DNA from: Candidatus Anaerofilum excrementigallinarum
GTDB lineage: Bacteria > Bacillota > Clostridia > Oscillospirales > Ruminococcaceae
Length of the DNA: 48,069 nt
NCBI GenBank assembly: GCA_019115305.1
Contig: DXDW01000010.1
Location: 1 to 48,069, forward strand
Reading direction: 5' to 3'
The translations under genes were made by a program, and so were the position numbers. Shown piece after piece: positions 15,706 to 28,204 of the stretch; the stretch's first letter is position 1; every line of letters starts with the position of its first letter. Under the pieces are notes generated by a model. It ran no database searches. It was not told the origin of the DNA and worked only from the letters and a program-made list of their open reading frames with translations.

Positions 15706-18917
<3,212 letters not shown>

Positions 18918-18921
<4 letters not shown>

Positions 18922-20003
18922 TCCCCTTTCTTCTGTGCCATACGGCGGATGAATTCGTCAAACAGGTACTCCGCGTCCCGGGGGCCGCCGCTGGCCTCGG
19001 GGTGGAACTGGACGGTGAAGCAGTTCCAGGCGGTGTAGGCCACGCCCTCGCAGGTGCCGTCGTTGGCGTTCACATGGCTCACCTTGCCCATCTCGGCGGG
19101 CAGAGTGTCCCCCAGAACGGCATAGCCGTGGTTCTGGCTGGTGATGAGGGTGCGGTCGTGGGCCAGGTCGGTGACAGGCTGGTTGGCGCCGCGGTGGCCG
19201 AATTTCAGCTTACCGGTGGAAGCGCCGGCGGCCAGAGCCGACAGCTGGTGGCCCAGGCAGATGCCGAACACCGGCAGGCCCAGGGCCATGATGGAGCGCA
19301 GATTCTCGATGATCTGCACATTTTCGGCGGGGTCGCCGGGGCCGTTGGACAGCATCACGCCGTCCACGTCCATGGCCTTGATCTCCTCGGCGGTGGCAAA
19401 GGCGGGCAGCACGGTGACCTCACAGCCCCGCTTTACCAGACAGCGGACGATGTTGTTCTTGCAGCCGAAGTCCAGCAGGGCGACCTTGTACTTTTCGCCC
19501 TTGCCGTGGACGGTGGGCTCGGAGCAGGTCACGGCCTTGACGGCGTCCACAATGGAGTAGCTGCGGATCTGAGCCAGCAGCTCTTCCCGCTTTTCCTCGG
19601 AATATTCGGTGGTGATGGCGCCGTTCATAACGCCGTGGCTGCGCAGGATGCGGGTGAGCCGGCGGGTGTCGATGCCCTCGATGCCCACGATGTTCTGTTC
19701 CTTCAAAAATGCATCCAGCGTCTTTTCACACCGGAAATTGCTGGGGTACTGGCAGCTTTCCCGCACGATGTATCCCTTGGCCCAGATCCGGTCGCTCTCC
19801 TTGTCCTGGCTGTTCATGCCGTAGTTGCCGATGAGCGGGTAGGTCTGGGTGATCAGCTGACCGTAATAGCTGGGGTCGGTGAGGGTCTCTTCAAACCCCA
19901 CCATGCCGGTGGCAAACACCACCTCGCCAACGGTGGTGCCGGCTACGCCCAGGCTTTTGCCCTCAAACAGGGTGCCGTCGGCCAGCAGCAGATACGCCTT
20001 CAT
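18918..20003 (-). CDS. carA: Carbamoyl-phosphate synthase small subunit
   Basis: LLLADGTLFEGKSLG, GATase GICLGHQ, FHPEASGGPRD. Confidence 0.97.
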
Positions 20004-20041
20004 ACTTACGAATCCCTCTTTTCTCTCTTGGTGTCTGGTGC

Positions 20042-20635
20042 TCACAGGGTCTGCTTGGCCTGCTCTTTCATCTTGCGGCTGCCCAGGTGGATCAGGGGCA
20101 GCTTGCCCTCGGCGCAGATGGGGCACTCCTCAGGCAGGTAGTTGGGCAGGTCCAGCTTGGCCGCGCTGGCCAGGATGGGAATGGGAGAGGGGGCGTCGGC
20201 CTTGGTGCGGTCCACCACGCAGGTGATGCCCAGGCAGATGCCGCCGGCCTCCTCGATGACACGCTTGGTCTCCAGGCTGGAGATACCGGTGGTGACCACG
20301 TCCTCGGCGATGATGCACTTTTCGCCGGGCTGGATGGCAAAGCGCTTCAGGGTCATCACATTGTCCACCCGCTCGGTGAAGATGGCCCGCTTGCCCAGCT
20401 GCCGGGCCAGCTCATAGGCGTAGACGATGCCGCCCATAGCCGGGCCGACGATGACGTCCACATCGGTGTCCTTCAGCTGCTCGGCCACCCGCTCCATCAC
20501 CTCGGCGCACTTGTCGGGGTACTGCTGCAGGTAGGCCATCTGGCAGTAGGCGGAGGAATGACGGCCGGAGGAAAGTAGGAAATGGCCCTCCAGGAAGGCG
20601 TCGCACTCTTTCAATACTTCAATGGGATCACGCAT
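20042..20635 (-). CDS. pyrE: Orotate phosphoribosyltransferase
   Basis: LLSSGRHSSAYCQM, VIVGPAMGGIVYAYELARQLGKRAIFTER, IIAEDVVTTGISSLE. Confidence 0.95.
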   Translation of the reverse strand: MRDPIEVLKECDAFLEGHFLLSSGRHSSAYCQMAYLQQYPDKCAEVMERVAEQLKDTDVDVIVGPAMGGIVYAYELARQLGKRAIFTERVDNVMTLKRFAIQPGEKCIIAEDVVTTGISSLETKRVIEEAGGICLGITCVVDRTKADAPSPIPILASAAKLDLPNYLPEECPICAEGKLPLIHLGSRKMKEQAKQTL

Positions 20636-20690
20636 GGTTGTATCCTCCTTGTATAGTTATATATGTTATATACAAATTGTTGTATCGCAC

Positions 20691-21596
20691 TTACAGGCAG
20701 CAGCCCCGGATCTCATCCAGGGTCTTGACGCCGTTTTTGTCCATCCAGGCGGCGATCTCGTCGGTGATGCGCTGGCAGGCCTTGGGATCGGCAAAGTTGG
20801 CGGTGCCCACCTGCACGGCCACAGCGCCGGCCATGATGAACTCCAAAGCGTCCCGGCCGGTGGCGATGCCGCCCAGACCGATGACGGGGATGTTCACCGT
20901 CTTGCAGACCTGGTGCACCATGCGCAGAGCGATGGGACGGATGGCGGGGCCGGACAGACCGGCGTAGACGTTGGCAAACACCGGGCGGCGCTTTTCCAGG
21001 TCGATGGCCATGGCCTGGAAGGTGTTCACCAGGCTCAGGGCATCGGCGCCGGCGTCGGCGCAGGCGGCGGCCATCTCAGGAATGCTCTCGGCGTTGGGGC
21101 TCATCTTGACGATGAGGGGCTTTTTGCAGACTGCCCGCACCCGGCTGACCACCTCGTGGGCGCTGTCGGCCTTGACGCCGTAGGCGATGCCCCCGTGCTT
21201 GACGTTGGGGCAGGAGATGTTCAGCTCGATGAAGTCCACGGGGGTGTCGCCCAGCAGCTGCGCGCCCTCCTCGTAGTCCTCGATGGCGCCGCCGCCCAGG
21301 TTGGCGAAGATGGCGGTGCCCAGAGTCTGCATCTCGGGCAGCTCGTTTTCAATGAAGTGCCGCACGCCGGGATTCTGCAGGCCGATGGAGTTGATGAGGC
21401 CGCTGGGGGTCTCCCACAGACGCTCGCCCTGGTTGCCGGGCTTGCCGTTGAGGGTGAGACCCTTGCTGCAGACGCCGCCCAGACGGCTGCAGTCGATCAT
21501 GTCGGCGTATTCCACGCCGTAGCCGAAGGTGCCGGAGGCGCCGATCACCGGGCCGTTGAGGGTCTTGCCCAGCAGATTTACCCGCAGATCAGCCAT
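20691..21596 (-). CDS. pyrD: Dihydroorotate dehydrogenase, class 1B catalytic subunit
   Basis: [16 protein letters not shown]-like start, [43 protein letters not shown]. Confidence 0.95.
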
Positions 21597-22362
21597 ATGC
21601 GTCCTCTCCTTTCAGCACAGGGCCCTGCTTGCAGACGCTGATAGCCCCTTTGTTCTTGGTGTGGCAGGTGCAGCCCAGGCAGGCCCCGATGCCGCAGGCC
21701 ATCTTGTTTTCCAGGCTCACCAGAATCTCGGTGCCCTTTTCCAGGGAGAGCTTGGTGGCGGCCTTCATCATGGGGGTGGGGCCGCAGCAGCAGATCACGT
21801 CGTAATCGGCGGGATCGTACAGCTCGGTGACCAGGCCATGGTGGCCGAAATTGCCGCTGTCGGTGGCCACTTCCACCTTGGCGCAGTAGGGGGCGAAGGC
21901 CTCCAGCCGGTAGGGCATATCCCGGAACCCGCAGAACAGGTCGGGCTTTTGGCCGGCCGCTGCCAGCTCCTTGGCCAGCTGCAGCAGGGGGGCGGTACCG
22001 ATGCCGCCGCCCACCAGGGCGATCTTTTTGCCCAGCAGCTGATCCACCGGCCAGCCGTTGCCCGCCGGGCCGGTGAGATTGAGGGTGTCCCCGGGCAGCA
22101 GAGCCGCCAGCTTGTGGGTGCCCTCTCCCCGCACTTCATACAGGAAGGAGACCACTCCGGTGTCGGGGGACCACTCGTGGACGCTGATGGGGCGGGAGAG
22201 CAGCGGGGCTTCGTCCTGCCGCCAGCAGCGCAGCATATAGAACTGGCCGGCCTTGGGGGCGTGGGCCATGTCTTCCCATTTTACATCCAGCAGACGGATG
22301 GTGTCGCTTACCGCCCGGTGGCTCAGTACCTTGCAATCACAGTTTTGCGCACGCATCGGCAA
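21589..22362 (-). CDS. pyrK: Dihydroorotate dehydrogenase electron transfer subunit
   Basis: FAD/NAD domain ([18 protein letters not shown]) and 2Fe-2S cysteines ([14 protein letters not shown]). Confidence 0.93.
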
Positions 22363-23203
22363 TGGCCTCCCTCATGGCAACACATTCGTTGTAGGCGGCC
22401 TCGTCAAAGGCTACGCCGGGCTGTTTCTTGCGGGCCAGCAGCACGCCGCGGCTGGAGTTGACCACGCCGCCGTTGCCCTTGGTGAGATACTGGGCAATGT
22501 CGGGGGCGGTGCCGCCCTGGGCGCCGTAGCCGGGGATCAGGAAGAAGCTGTCCTTGTAGCGGGCGCGGATCTCGGCTGCCTCCTCGATATGGGTGCCGCC
22601 GATGACCAGACCCAGGCTGGAGTAGCCCCGCTCGCCCATGTAGCCCTTGCCCAGGGCGTTGAGCTTGTCGCCCACCATGTCGTAGACGTGGCGGCCGTCG
22701 GCCAGCTTCTCGTATTCAAAGTCTTTGGCGCCGGGGTTGGAGGTGCGCACCAGCACAAACAGGCCCTTGCCCTGCTTTTCCACAAAGGGCAGGTAGGGCT
22801 GGATGGAATCCAGGCCCATGTAGGGAGCCAAAGTGATGTAGTCGGCCTCGAAGTCGCCCTCGAAGTGGGCGCGGGCGTACATCTCGGCGGTTTTGGCGAT
22901 GTCGCCCCGCTTGATGTCGGCGATCACGGGGATGCCGGCCTCGCGCACCATGCGCAGGGTCTCGGCGTAGGCGCGCATGCCGTCCAGGCCCAGAGTCTCG
23001 TAATAGGCGATCTGCACCTTGTAGCAGCCGGCGGCAGACTTGGTGGCTTCCAGAATGGCCTTGTTGAACCGCACGATGTTCTCACCGGCGGTGAGCTCGG
23101 ATTTCACAAACTCCTCGGGCAGGTAGCTGAAATCGGTGTCCAGCCCCACGCAGACAGGGCCGCGGGCGGCAACAGCGTCATACAGTTTGTCCATATTGGT
23201 CAT
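22337..23203 (-). CDS. pyrF: Orotidine 5'-phosphate decarboxylase (PyrF type 2)
   Basis: VCVGLDTDFSYLPE, VIADIKRGDIAKTAEMYA, FLIPGYGAQGG. Confidence 0.95.
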   Translation of the reverse strand: MTNMDKLYDAVAARGPVCVGLDTDFSYLPEEFVKSELTAGENIVRFNKAILEATKSAAGCYKVQIAYYETLGLDGMRAYAETLRMVREAGIPVIADIKRGDIAKTAEMYARAHFEGDFEADYITLAPYMGLDSIQPYLPFVEKQGKGLFVLVRTSNPGAKDFEYEKLADGRHVYDMVGDKLNALGKGYMGERGYSSLGLVIGGTHIEEAAEIRARYKDSFFLIPGYGAQGGTAPDIAQYLTKGNGGVVNSSRGVLLARKKQPGVAFDEAAYNECVAMREAIADACAKL

Positions 23204-23292
23204 TGCAGATTCCTCCGTCGTTTGGTGTTGATGCAGCCGGTTTTCCCCGCTGCCAGATTCGTTCAAAGGGCACAACTTGCCTATCATGCTTT

Positions 23293-23298
23293 AGTATA
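23293..23298 (-). promoter_or_regulatory. Possible internal promoter (extended -10) upstream of pyrF
   Basis: AAATATGCTATACTA in the 122-bp pyrC-pyrF gap; same 15-mer as the lysS promoter -10 region. Confidence 0.45.
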
Positions 23299-23325
23299 GC
23301 ATATTTTGCGCATTTTCGCACCCGG

Positions 23326-24501
23326 TCAGGGGCGATTGTAGGTGATTTTTCCGCCCATCACCGTCATCCACACCCGGCCAAACAGCTCGGCGCCGGCGAA
23401 GGGGGTGTTGCGGCTTTTGCTGTGGAAGGTTTCGGGGTCCACCACAAAGGGCTCGTCCAGCTCCACCAAAGTGAAATCGGCGTCCCAGCCGGGCAGCAGC
23501 CGGCCTTTGCTCTGCAGGCCCAGGATGCAGGCGGGATAGTAGCTCATCAGGTCGCTGAGCACCGACAGGGGCAGACCCTCCTGCAGGCAGAGCTTGGTGT
23601 AGCAGACCGAAAAGGCGGTCTCGCTGCCCACCATGCCGGCCATGCCATTGGCCTTGTCCTCGGCGGAATGGGGGGCGTGGTCGGTGGCGATGGCGTCCAC
23701 CAGGCCTGCCTTGATGGCCGCCACCAGGGCGTCCACATCCTCTTTCTGGCGGATGGGGGGATTCACCTTGTAGTCGGTGTCGTGGAACCACAGGTGGTGG
23801 GGGGTCACCTCGCAGGTGACGTTGGCCCCCTTCTGCTTGGCCTCGCCGATGGCCAGCATGGCCTCCTTGGTGCTCACATGGCACATGTGCAGCCGGGTGC
23901 CGTAGTACTCGCAGAGGTGCAGGTTGCGCACCGTCTCGATGTTTTCGGCCAGACGGTAGTCCCAGGGGGAGATATCCATGTCCTCGGCATGGCTCATGAG
24001 GGTGATGCCTTTTTCGGCGCAGATGGCGAAGGCCTTGGCCATCACCTCGTTGCTCTGCACGCCCTTGCCGTCCTCGGTGATAAACTTGATGTCATCGGGC
24101 AGGTCCAGCAGCCGCTGGACGCTTTTGCCGTCGAAGTTCTCGGTGATGCTCACGGTCTGGTTGGCGCCGCACAGCCCCACCCGGCGTGCCTCGTCCATCA
24201 CCCAGCGGGCCTGCTCGGCGCTGGAGCAGACGGGCTTGGTGTTGGGCATCAGGTTGACGAAGGTGTAGCCGCCGGCGGCCGCCGCGGCGGAACCGGTGGA
24301 GATGTCCTCCTTATATTCAAAGCCCGGGGTACGCCAGTGGCAGTGCAGGTCCACAAAGCCGGGCAAAATGGTGCGTCCGGCGGCGTCGATGGTCTCGGGG
24401 TCCTGGATGGGCAGGTTCTGGCCCATGGCCCGGATCTTGCCCTCGTACACCCACACATCCGCGGGGGTGCCGTCGGCCAGCAGCGCGTTTTTGATCAGCA
24501 T
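23326..24501 (-). CDS. pyrC: Dihydroorotase
   Basis: ILPGFVDLHCHWRTPGFEYKEDISTGSAAAAAGGYT, CHVSTKEA, IATDHAPHSAEDK. Confidence 0.95.
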   Translation of the reverse strand: MLIKNALLADGTPADVWVYEGKIRAMGQNLPIQDPETIDAAGRTILPGFVDLHCHWRTPGFEYKEDISTGSAAAAAGGYTFVNLMPNTKPVCSSAEQARWVMDEARRVGLCGANQTVSITENFDGKSVQRLLDLPDDIKFITEDGKGVQSNEVMAKAFAICAEKGITLMSHAEDMDISPWDYRLAENIETVRNLHLCEYYGTRLHMCHVSTKEAMLAIGEAKQKGANVTCEVTPHHLWFHDTDYKVNPPIRQKEDVDALVAAIKAGLVDAIATDHAPHSAEDKANGMAGMVGSETAFSVCYTKLCLQEGLPLSVLSDLMSYYPACILGLQSKGRLLPGWDADFTLVELDEPFVVDPETFHSKSRNTPFAGAELFGRVWMTVMGGKITYNRP

Positions 24502-24516: not shown

Positions 24517-25593
24517 TTATTCCTCAATATGGGCGGTGTAGTCGCAGTACAGGCAGCGGTACTCGTTGGGGGCGATCTCCAGCATCTGCTGGGGCTCGTT
24601 TTCCAGGTTGCAGATGCAGCGGGGGTTCTTGCAGCGGTATTTGGTGGGGACAAGGCGGGTCTGCTTGGGCTGGTAGCCAACCTCCAGCAGCTTGAGGATC
24701 AGAGCCATGCGGATGAACATACCGTAGCGGGCCTGGCGGAAGTAGCGGGCCCGGGGATCGTAGTCCACCTCACGGCTGATCTCCTTCACCCGGGGCAGGG
24801 GGTGCATGACGATCATGTCGTCCTTGGCCAGCTTCATCTTCTCGGCGTCCAGGACGTAGTAGTCCTTGAGGCGCTCGTACTCGGACTCGTCCGAGAACCG
24901 CTCCCGCTGGATGCGGGTCATATACAGCACATCGCAGTCGGCGATGGCATCCTCGATCTTGTCCACCTCGGTGAAGGGCACCTTATTTTCCTGAAGGAAC
25001 TCCCGCAGATACCGGGGCAGCCGCAGCTCTTCGGGGCTGATGAGCACAAACTCCACATTTTCGTAGCGGCTCATGGCCTGGATCAGGCTGTGGACCGTGC
25101 GGCCGAACTTCAGGTCACCGCAGATGGCCACCTTCAGGTCGCTGGTGCGGCCGAACACCGTGTGCATGGTGTACAGGTCGGTGAGGGTCTGGGTGGGGTG
25201 GTTATGGCCGCCGTCACCGGCGTTGATCACCGGGATGTCGCTGTACAGGCTGGCCACCTTGGGAGCGCCCTCGTAGGGGTGCCGCATGACGATGATGTCG
25301 GCGTAGGCACTGAGCATCCGGGCGGTGTCGGCCACGGTTTCTCCCTTGGTCACGCTGGAGGAGCCGGGGTCGGAGAAGCCCACCACGCGGCCGCCCAGGC
25401 GGTTCATAGCCGAGGCAAAGGACAGCCGGGTGCGGGTGCTGGGCTCGTAGAACAAGGTGCCCATCAGCTTGCCCGCGCAGGCATTGACATACAGCTCGGG
25501 GCGATTTTTGATGTCGTCGGCCAGAACGAACAGCTCCTCGATTTCCTTCACGCTCAGGTCCTGAGGCTCGATGAGAGAATGGGTTTTCAGCAT
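24517..25593 (-). CDS. pyrB: Aspartate carbamoyltransferase catalytic chain with C-terminal PyrI-like zinc motif
   Basis: [48 protein letters not shown]-terminal extension with CKNPRC...CLYC. Confidence 0.95.
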
Positions 25594-25645
25594 AACGCAC
25601 ACTCCTTTTTCGCTGGCAGCGGGTCTGGGCCGGTGACTTTTGGGC

Positions 25646-25673
25646 AAAAAAAAACTTTTCCCCAGGGGAAAAG
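25646..25673 (-). terminator. pyrB leader attenuator (intrinsic terminator)
   Basis: CTTTTCCCC-T-GGGGAAAAG then T9 on the minus strand, hairpin begins directly after the leader-peptide stop codon. Confidence 0.85.
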
Positions 25674-25757
25674 TCAAAACGCCAAAAGCGGGGCGGCCAG
25701 CCCCTGCATAAACACAACCATGGGAAAGGGAGCAGACAGCGTATACCGTTTTTTCAT
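25674..25757 (-). CDS. Predicted 27-aa pyr leader peptide (PyrL-like in position)
   Basis: ATG at 25757: [27 protein letters not shown]; upstream GAGGAAAGGGG as SD; TGA at 25676-25674 abuts the attenuator. Confidence 0.7.
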
Positions 25758-25792
25758 CTGTGCGCGCCCCTTTCCTCAATAAATTTCAAATT

Positions 25793-25821
25793 ATTTTATC
25801 ATGCGCCGCCCGGCTTGTCAA
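25793..25821 (-). promoter_or_regulatory. pyr operon promoter
   Basis: TTGACA (25816-25821) - 17 bp - TAAAAT (25793-25798), TGA before the -10. Confidence 0.8.
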
Positions 25822-28101: not shown

Positions 28102-28174
28102 GGCCTTCGCCTCCTGTTCATTTCTATAGAGCATCCTACCCCAAAACAGGCCGGATTGTCAAACTTTCCGCGGC

Positions 28175-28204
28175 TTGACATCCCTTTCCTGTTGGGGGTA
28201 GAAT
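28175..28204 (+). promoter_or_regulatory. Predicted promoter of the MarR gene
   Basis: TTGACA - 18 bp - TAGAAT. Confidence 0.6.

Follow-up and report, generated by a model that had tools for sequence, protein, structure and literature searches.

A probable pyrBI-type attenuator leader upstream of the pyr operon in Anaerofilum and PyrR-lacking relatives

Introduction

Regulation by a ribosome that follows close behind the polymerase is a textbook mechanism of enterobacteria. In the pyrL leader of Escherichia coli, RNA polymerase pauses when UTP is low, which allows the ribosome to draw level and block the terminator (PMC10135430, PMC5021804). His leader peptides have been reported in Bacilli, so leader peptides exist in Firmicutes (PMC2965389). 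In a classification by phylum, the Bacillota were placed among the bacteria with runaway (uncoupled) transcription (PMC13323073, PMC7858274).

The locus described here lies in a window (the whole stretch of DNA that was analyzed, 48,069 nucleotides) that is contig 211 of an Anaerofilum MAG (Oscillospiraceae; 84% complete). The E. coli pyrL control sequence was taken from NC_000913 and compared side by side with the leader upstream of pyrB in the window. In E. coli, the order is Shine-Dalgarno (SD) tract, ORF, hairpin, U-rich tract, terminator and TTTTTTTTGCCC, and the parts of the Anaerofilum leader follow in the same order, which agrees with the pyrBI-type layout proposed in an earlier, sequence-only reading of the locus.

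Results

Leader and operon

ORFs and Pfam matches gave the gene order pyrB-pyrC-pyrF-pyrK-pyrD-pyrE-carA-carB on the minus strand downstream of the leader. The features of the locus are:

25793..25821, minus strand: sigma-70-type promoter TTGACA-17-TAAAAT with an extended -10 (consensus scan, 11/12 match, TG before the -10)
25767..25777, minus strand: SD tract of the leader ORF, GAGGAAAGGGG (sequence)
25674..25757, minus strand: leader ORF of 27 codons ending in UGA (translation; counterpart ORFs at 15 other loci)
25722..25733, minus strand: pyrimidine tract GCUCCCUUUCCC inside the leader ORF, complementary to the leader SD (minimum-energy fold, pairs with 25767..25777)
25690..25704, minus strand: GGGGC-N5-GCCCC hairpin (GGGGC-TGGCC-GCCCC), a candidate pause hairpin (-9.0 kcal/mol)
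25669..25689, minus strand: U-rich tract GCUUUUGGCGUUUUGACUUUU (sequence)
25646..25675, minus strand: intrinsic terminator (attenuator), a 10-bp stem (25675..25653) followed by T9 to 25646
25642..25645, minus strand: GCCC directly 3' of the T run, common to seven other family leaders and E. coli pyrBI
24517..25593, minus strand: pyrB, aspartate carbamoyltransferase, 358 aa (Pfam OTCace_N, OTCace)
15706..24501, minus strand: pyrC, pyrF, pyrK, pyrD, pyrE, carA and carB (ORFs, Pfam)

The promoter, SD, 27-codon ORF, GC hairpin, U-rich tract and terminator were all recovered on the minus strand, exact to the base, where the sequence-only reading had put them. That reading had the terminator begin right after the UGA of the leader ORF; the position was correct, but the two do not merely abut, as the G (25675) and A (25674) of the UGA are the first two bases of the stem.

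The consensus scan detected no promoter-like site near pyrB on the minus strand other than 25821..25793 and none in the 52 nt that separate pyrB from the T run. Transcription of the pyr operon must therefore cross the terminator, and the terminator is therefore an attenuator. The -10 with its preceding TGA is retained in the leaders of the Anaerofilum genomes G134, G018 and G198. Elsewhere in the window, two good divergent promoter-like sites, TTGACA-18-TAGGAT (minus) and TTGACA-18-TAGAAT (plus), lie at 28133..28204, flanked by genes for a radical SAM protein and a MarR-like protein.

The terminator has a predicted stability of -11.4 kcal/mol, which was equaled by 4 of 200 shuffled sequences. 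The single-sequence fold of the whole leader was unexceptional (z about -1.5), and for that reason the case made below rests on comparison. The GGGGC-N5-GCCCC stem is retained in 4/4 Anaerofilum genomes, with differing loops and one GC pair changed to GU.

The transcription start is predicted near 25787. E. coli pyrBI has a second control layer, UTP-dependent slippage at its AAUUU transcription start. GAAAUUU at 25781..25787, near the predicted start in the window, is similar to the AAUUUG at which E. coli pyrBI transcription begins; AAAUUU is present near the start, as predicted from the sequence, in the window, G018 and G198 and absent in G134, G024 and G057. The C-terminus of PyrB has a PyrI-like zinc ribbon (24517..24640, residues 320-356; a weak PyrI_C match), which may be what is left of a fused regulatory chain.

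The leader among relatives

The survey of pyrB upstream regions covered about 135 family genomes and 79 named loci obtained in a broad search for pyrB. The layout was found at 16 loci, 15 of them in family genomes and one (L093) in an unrelated Clostridiales MAG. The carriers are four Anaerofilum genomes (G000, G018, G134 and G198, that is, the window genome and three further members of the genus), G024, G057, five genomes of one genus (g48), G078, G088, two g51 genomes and L093. The genome nearest to the window is G134, Anaerofilum sp. An201, with a pyrB identity of 93%.

The leader peptides range from 16 to 67 residues, are almost wholly different between genera and are unconserved even among species whose PyrB proteins are 82-93% identical. 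The stop codon lies at the start of the terminator stem in Anaerofilum, G024, G057, g51 and L093; in G318 it is at or close to the edge of the stem, and in the other g48 genomes it is in the terminator loop. In G078 and G088, the leader ORF passes through the terminator. Conservation of the leader in relatives, on which the sequence-only reading depended, thus holds for an ORF with a fixed junction between stop and terminator and fails for the peptide sequence. In G221 (g48), one base of the ORF is lost and one T is gained in the terminator loop (-1/+1), so that the UAA is still in the loop although the end of the peptide is read in a different frame. This compensating frameshift points to translation of the ORF and to selection on the position of the stop, not on the peptide.

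An ORF with a strict SD that reaches the terminator was detected at 13/16 leader loci vs. 1/32 other pyrB-upstream terminators (Fisher 3.7e-8), and the U content of the 40 nt upstream of the terminator was 0.41 at leader-type and 0.32 at other pyrB terminators (p=0.0009); the leader loci were chosen by eye for their layout and most are related and non-independent, so both p-values overstate the case. About 10% of shuffled leaders had an ORF that reached the terminator (shuffle null 0.10). The window is one of the three leader loci that fail the strict SD rule, its SD matching the consensus at 4 bases, not 5. The single positive among the 32 controls (L168, in G040) is a small gene, presumably SpoVM-like, with its own terminator directly upstream of pyrB, and is useful as a control for false positives.

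The tail that follows the T run is also shared. GYCC (G[CT]CC) was found in 8/16 leaders (25642..25645 in the window; L024, L025, L026, L027, L028, L041, L048 and L163) and in E. coli pyrBI, and occurred at 0/37 other terminators of An201, 0/17 others of E. coli and 1/52 other terminators of Clostridia loci. Folding indicates that, once the polymerase has read through, this tail could base-pair with the GGG in the 3' arm of the stem.

Proposed mechanism and alternatives

The leader is probably a translation-coupled, pyrBI-type attenuator, acting on the entire pyr operon in place of PyrR. By analogy with E. coli, we infer UTP sensing, polymerase pausing and ribosome blockade in the Anaerofilum leader. 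With pyrimidine nucleotides in ample supply, RNA polymerase starting near 25787 would cross the leader fast, the terminator would fold and transcription would end short of pyrB. At low UTP (perhaps also CTP), the polymerase would slow along the pyrimidine-rich leader as well as at the hairpin and U-rich tract, and the ribosome on the leader ORF would catch up, reach the stop codon and cover the 5' arm of the terminator, allowing the polymerase to continue into pyrB. Translation to the stop would be decisive and the peptide itself irrelevant. The sequence features, hairpin and U-rich tract, are present upstream of the terminator and the U content there is raised; pausing at them is a prediction.

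Under runaway transcription, a trailing ribosome might not catch up, which counts against translation coupling. The median distance from stop codon to terminator was 24 nt in Anaerofilum (27 terminators) vs. 20 nt in an E. coli sample (12 terminators; p=0.24), a weak indication from small samples that stop codons and terminators are not tightly packed in Anaerofilum and bear no runaway signature. A search of the four Anaerofilum genomes (G000, G018, G134 and G198) gave no Rho match above the cut-off of the family. Coding purine content was about 51% in the An201 sample, like that of the E. coli sample; purine bias was rejected as a proxy for coupling because the genus is without a Rho match over the cut-off.

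The translation-coupled reading can be elaborated into a two-step kinetic sensor in which the pyrimidine tract of the ORF is an anti-SD. Low UTP or CTP would slow the polymerase, the tract would be made late, the SD would stay open longer and more ribosomes would load; the same coupling step would then block the terminator. An SD/anti-SD hairpin was predicted in the four Anaerofilum genomes and G057 from differing sequences, with 0-39 of 300 shuffles equally stable. Compensatory pair changes were found in G134 and in G018/G198: two pairs are changed on both sides, and 95% of cells are paired vs. at most 75% when the arms are slid, a comparison of four sequences only. Such two-sided changes favor the two-step sensor. 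Against it, the SD is purine-rich and any pyrimidine tract would pair with it by chance; 39/300 shuffles were as stable as the hairpin in the window and 89/300 as that of G024, and in g48, g78, g51 and E. coli the hairpin was weak or not above chance in the shuffle test. The SD hairpin was accordingly rejected as a feature common to all leaders, the shuffle test giving no support outside Anaerofilum and G057. We regard the two-step sensor as possible but doubtful. If SD masking does occur, the nucleotide level would determine how readily ribosomes load and also the coupling at the terminator. The fuller proposal, loss of PyrR in a Firmicute lineage and the independent evolution there of an NTP-sensing, ribosome-coupled attenuator with SD masking as its first stage, is unlikely.

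A translation-coupled attenuator might instead respond to a signal other than UTP, either the general translation rate or tRNA charging as in trp- and his-type attenuators. The identical layout of ORF and terminator would suit such a signal, and Phe codons are frequent near the end of the ORF in many leaders. These codons are there because of the U-rich tract, however, and the 16 peptides have no run of one regulatory codon in common. Further, the folds contained no alternative antiterminator pairing with the 5' arm, and the products of the operon are pyrimidines. We judge a signal of this kind improbable.

Much the same layout would arise if an ordinary small gene, complete with terminator, lay upstream of pyrB by chance, and the gene at L168 is such a case. 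This explanation is very improbable for the leader in the window, as its peptide is unconserved and the scan found no promoter between terminator and pyrB.

PyrR and its RNA element

PyrR protein, called with model NF003549 over its cut-off, was present in 86/198 genomes of the family and was detected in none of the family's leader genomes, nor in the genome of L093. The PyrR RNA element (RF00515) was not detected in the family leader genomes searched; G198 was searched for the protein only. The sequence-only reading had seen neither an obvious PyrR-type leader nor pyrR in the window. Consistent with this, the Rfam scan of the window and leader gave no PyrR match even at E 10 and no relevant match to other families, and no PyrR protein over the cut-off was found in the four genomes of the genus, two of which are 97% and 99% complete.

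RF00515 lies immediately 5' of pyrB in the PyrR-positive relatives G156 and G145, and by eye a PyrR loop also lies upstream of pyrB in Clostridium species. PyrR leaders thus hold the same position as the leader described here, but with RF00515 and PyrR absent from the family leader genomes and no Rfam family in the leader, a PyrR-type attenuator, or another riboswitch or protein-binding attenuator, that the searches overlooked is hardly credible.

In a pyrB tree, 10 of the 11 leader rows fell into one group of 12 rows without PyrR members (support 89, quick method). The two non-leader rows of this group are G116 and G170. Upstream of pyrB in these genomes (L034 and L037, respectively) are long hairpins with a purine arm and a pyrimidine arm that end in a T-rich GYCC, with possible 45-codon ORFs running through them; they are possibly a further variant of the leader.

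Discussion

The pyrBI-type interpretation of the leader is supported as far as sequence can show. None of the checks proposed with the sequence-only reading that could be made on sequence refuted it: the ORF is conserved in relatives, and PyrR and its RNA element are absent. The PyrB of the window is 46% identical to that of E. coli, and leader rows are scattered in the similarity ranking. Transfer of leader and pyrB together from Proteobacteria was considered and rejected, as the PyrB proteins of leader genomes are no nearer to E. coli PyrB than others are. Since PyrB is not close to that of E. coli, the likeness of the two switches is read as convergence, and homology is not indicated. The pyrBI-type switch seems to have arisen separately from that of the enterobacteria and to have replaced the standard Firmicute one.

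The open-access literature that was searched contained no prior description of a pyrBI-type leader in these bacteria. If the reading is true, a conserved leader of this type in a PyrR-less clade of Oscillospiraceae would provide a natural test of coupling outside the Proteobacteria and be a clear example of an operon at which one sensing system has taken over from another.

The amino-acid attenuators (trp, his) resemble the pyr leaders in having a leader peptide and a terminator, and differ in their shared regulatory codons and antiterminator hairpin, which were not seen in the pyr leaders. The PyrR attenuator of the Bacillota (RF00515) shares the operon, the position and the outcome, termination when pyrimidines suffice, but requires the PyrR protein and its binding loop, both of which are absent in Anaerofilum. 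The closest counterpart is E. coli pyrBI, in which a leader before pyrB likewise has an SD and ORF, a hairpin and U-rich tract upstream of the terminator and GCCC after the T run, and in which a ribosome at the end of the ORF would cover the terminator. The Anaerofilum ORF ends at the stem rather than crossing the terminator as in pyrL; only G078 and G088 resemble pyrL in having the ORF run through it. The template of E. coli pyrL is 49% U-requiring (a literature value), whereas the leader ORF of the window has a lower U content of 32%, which counts against the pyrBI-type reading. Anaerofilum further differs in having a leader SD that could be sequestered, the whole pyr-car operon downstream and a Firmicute host.
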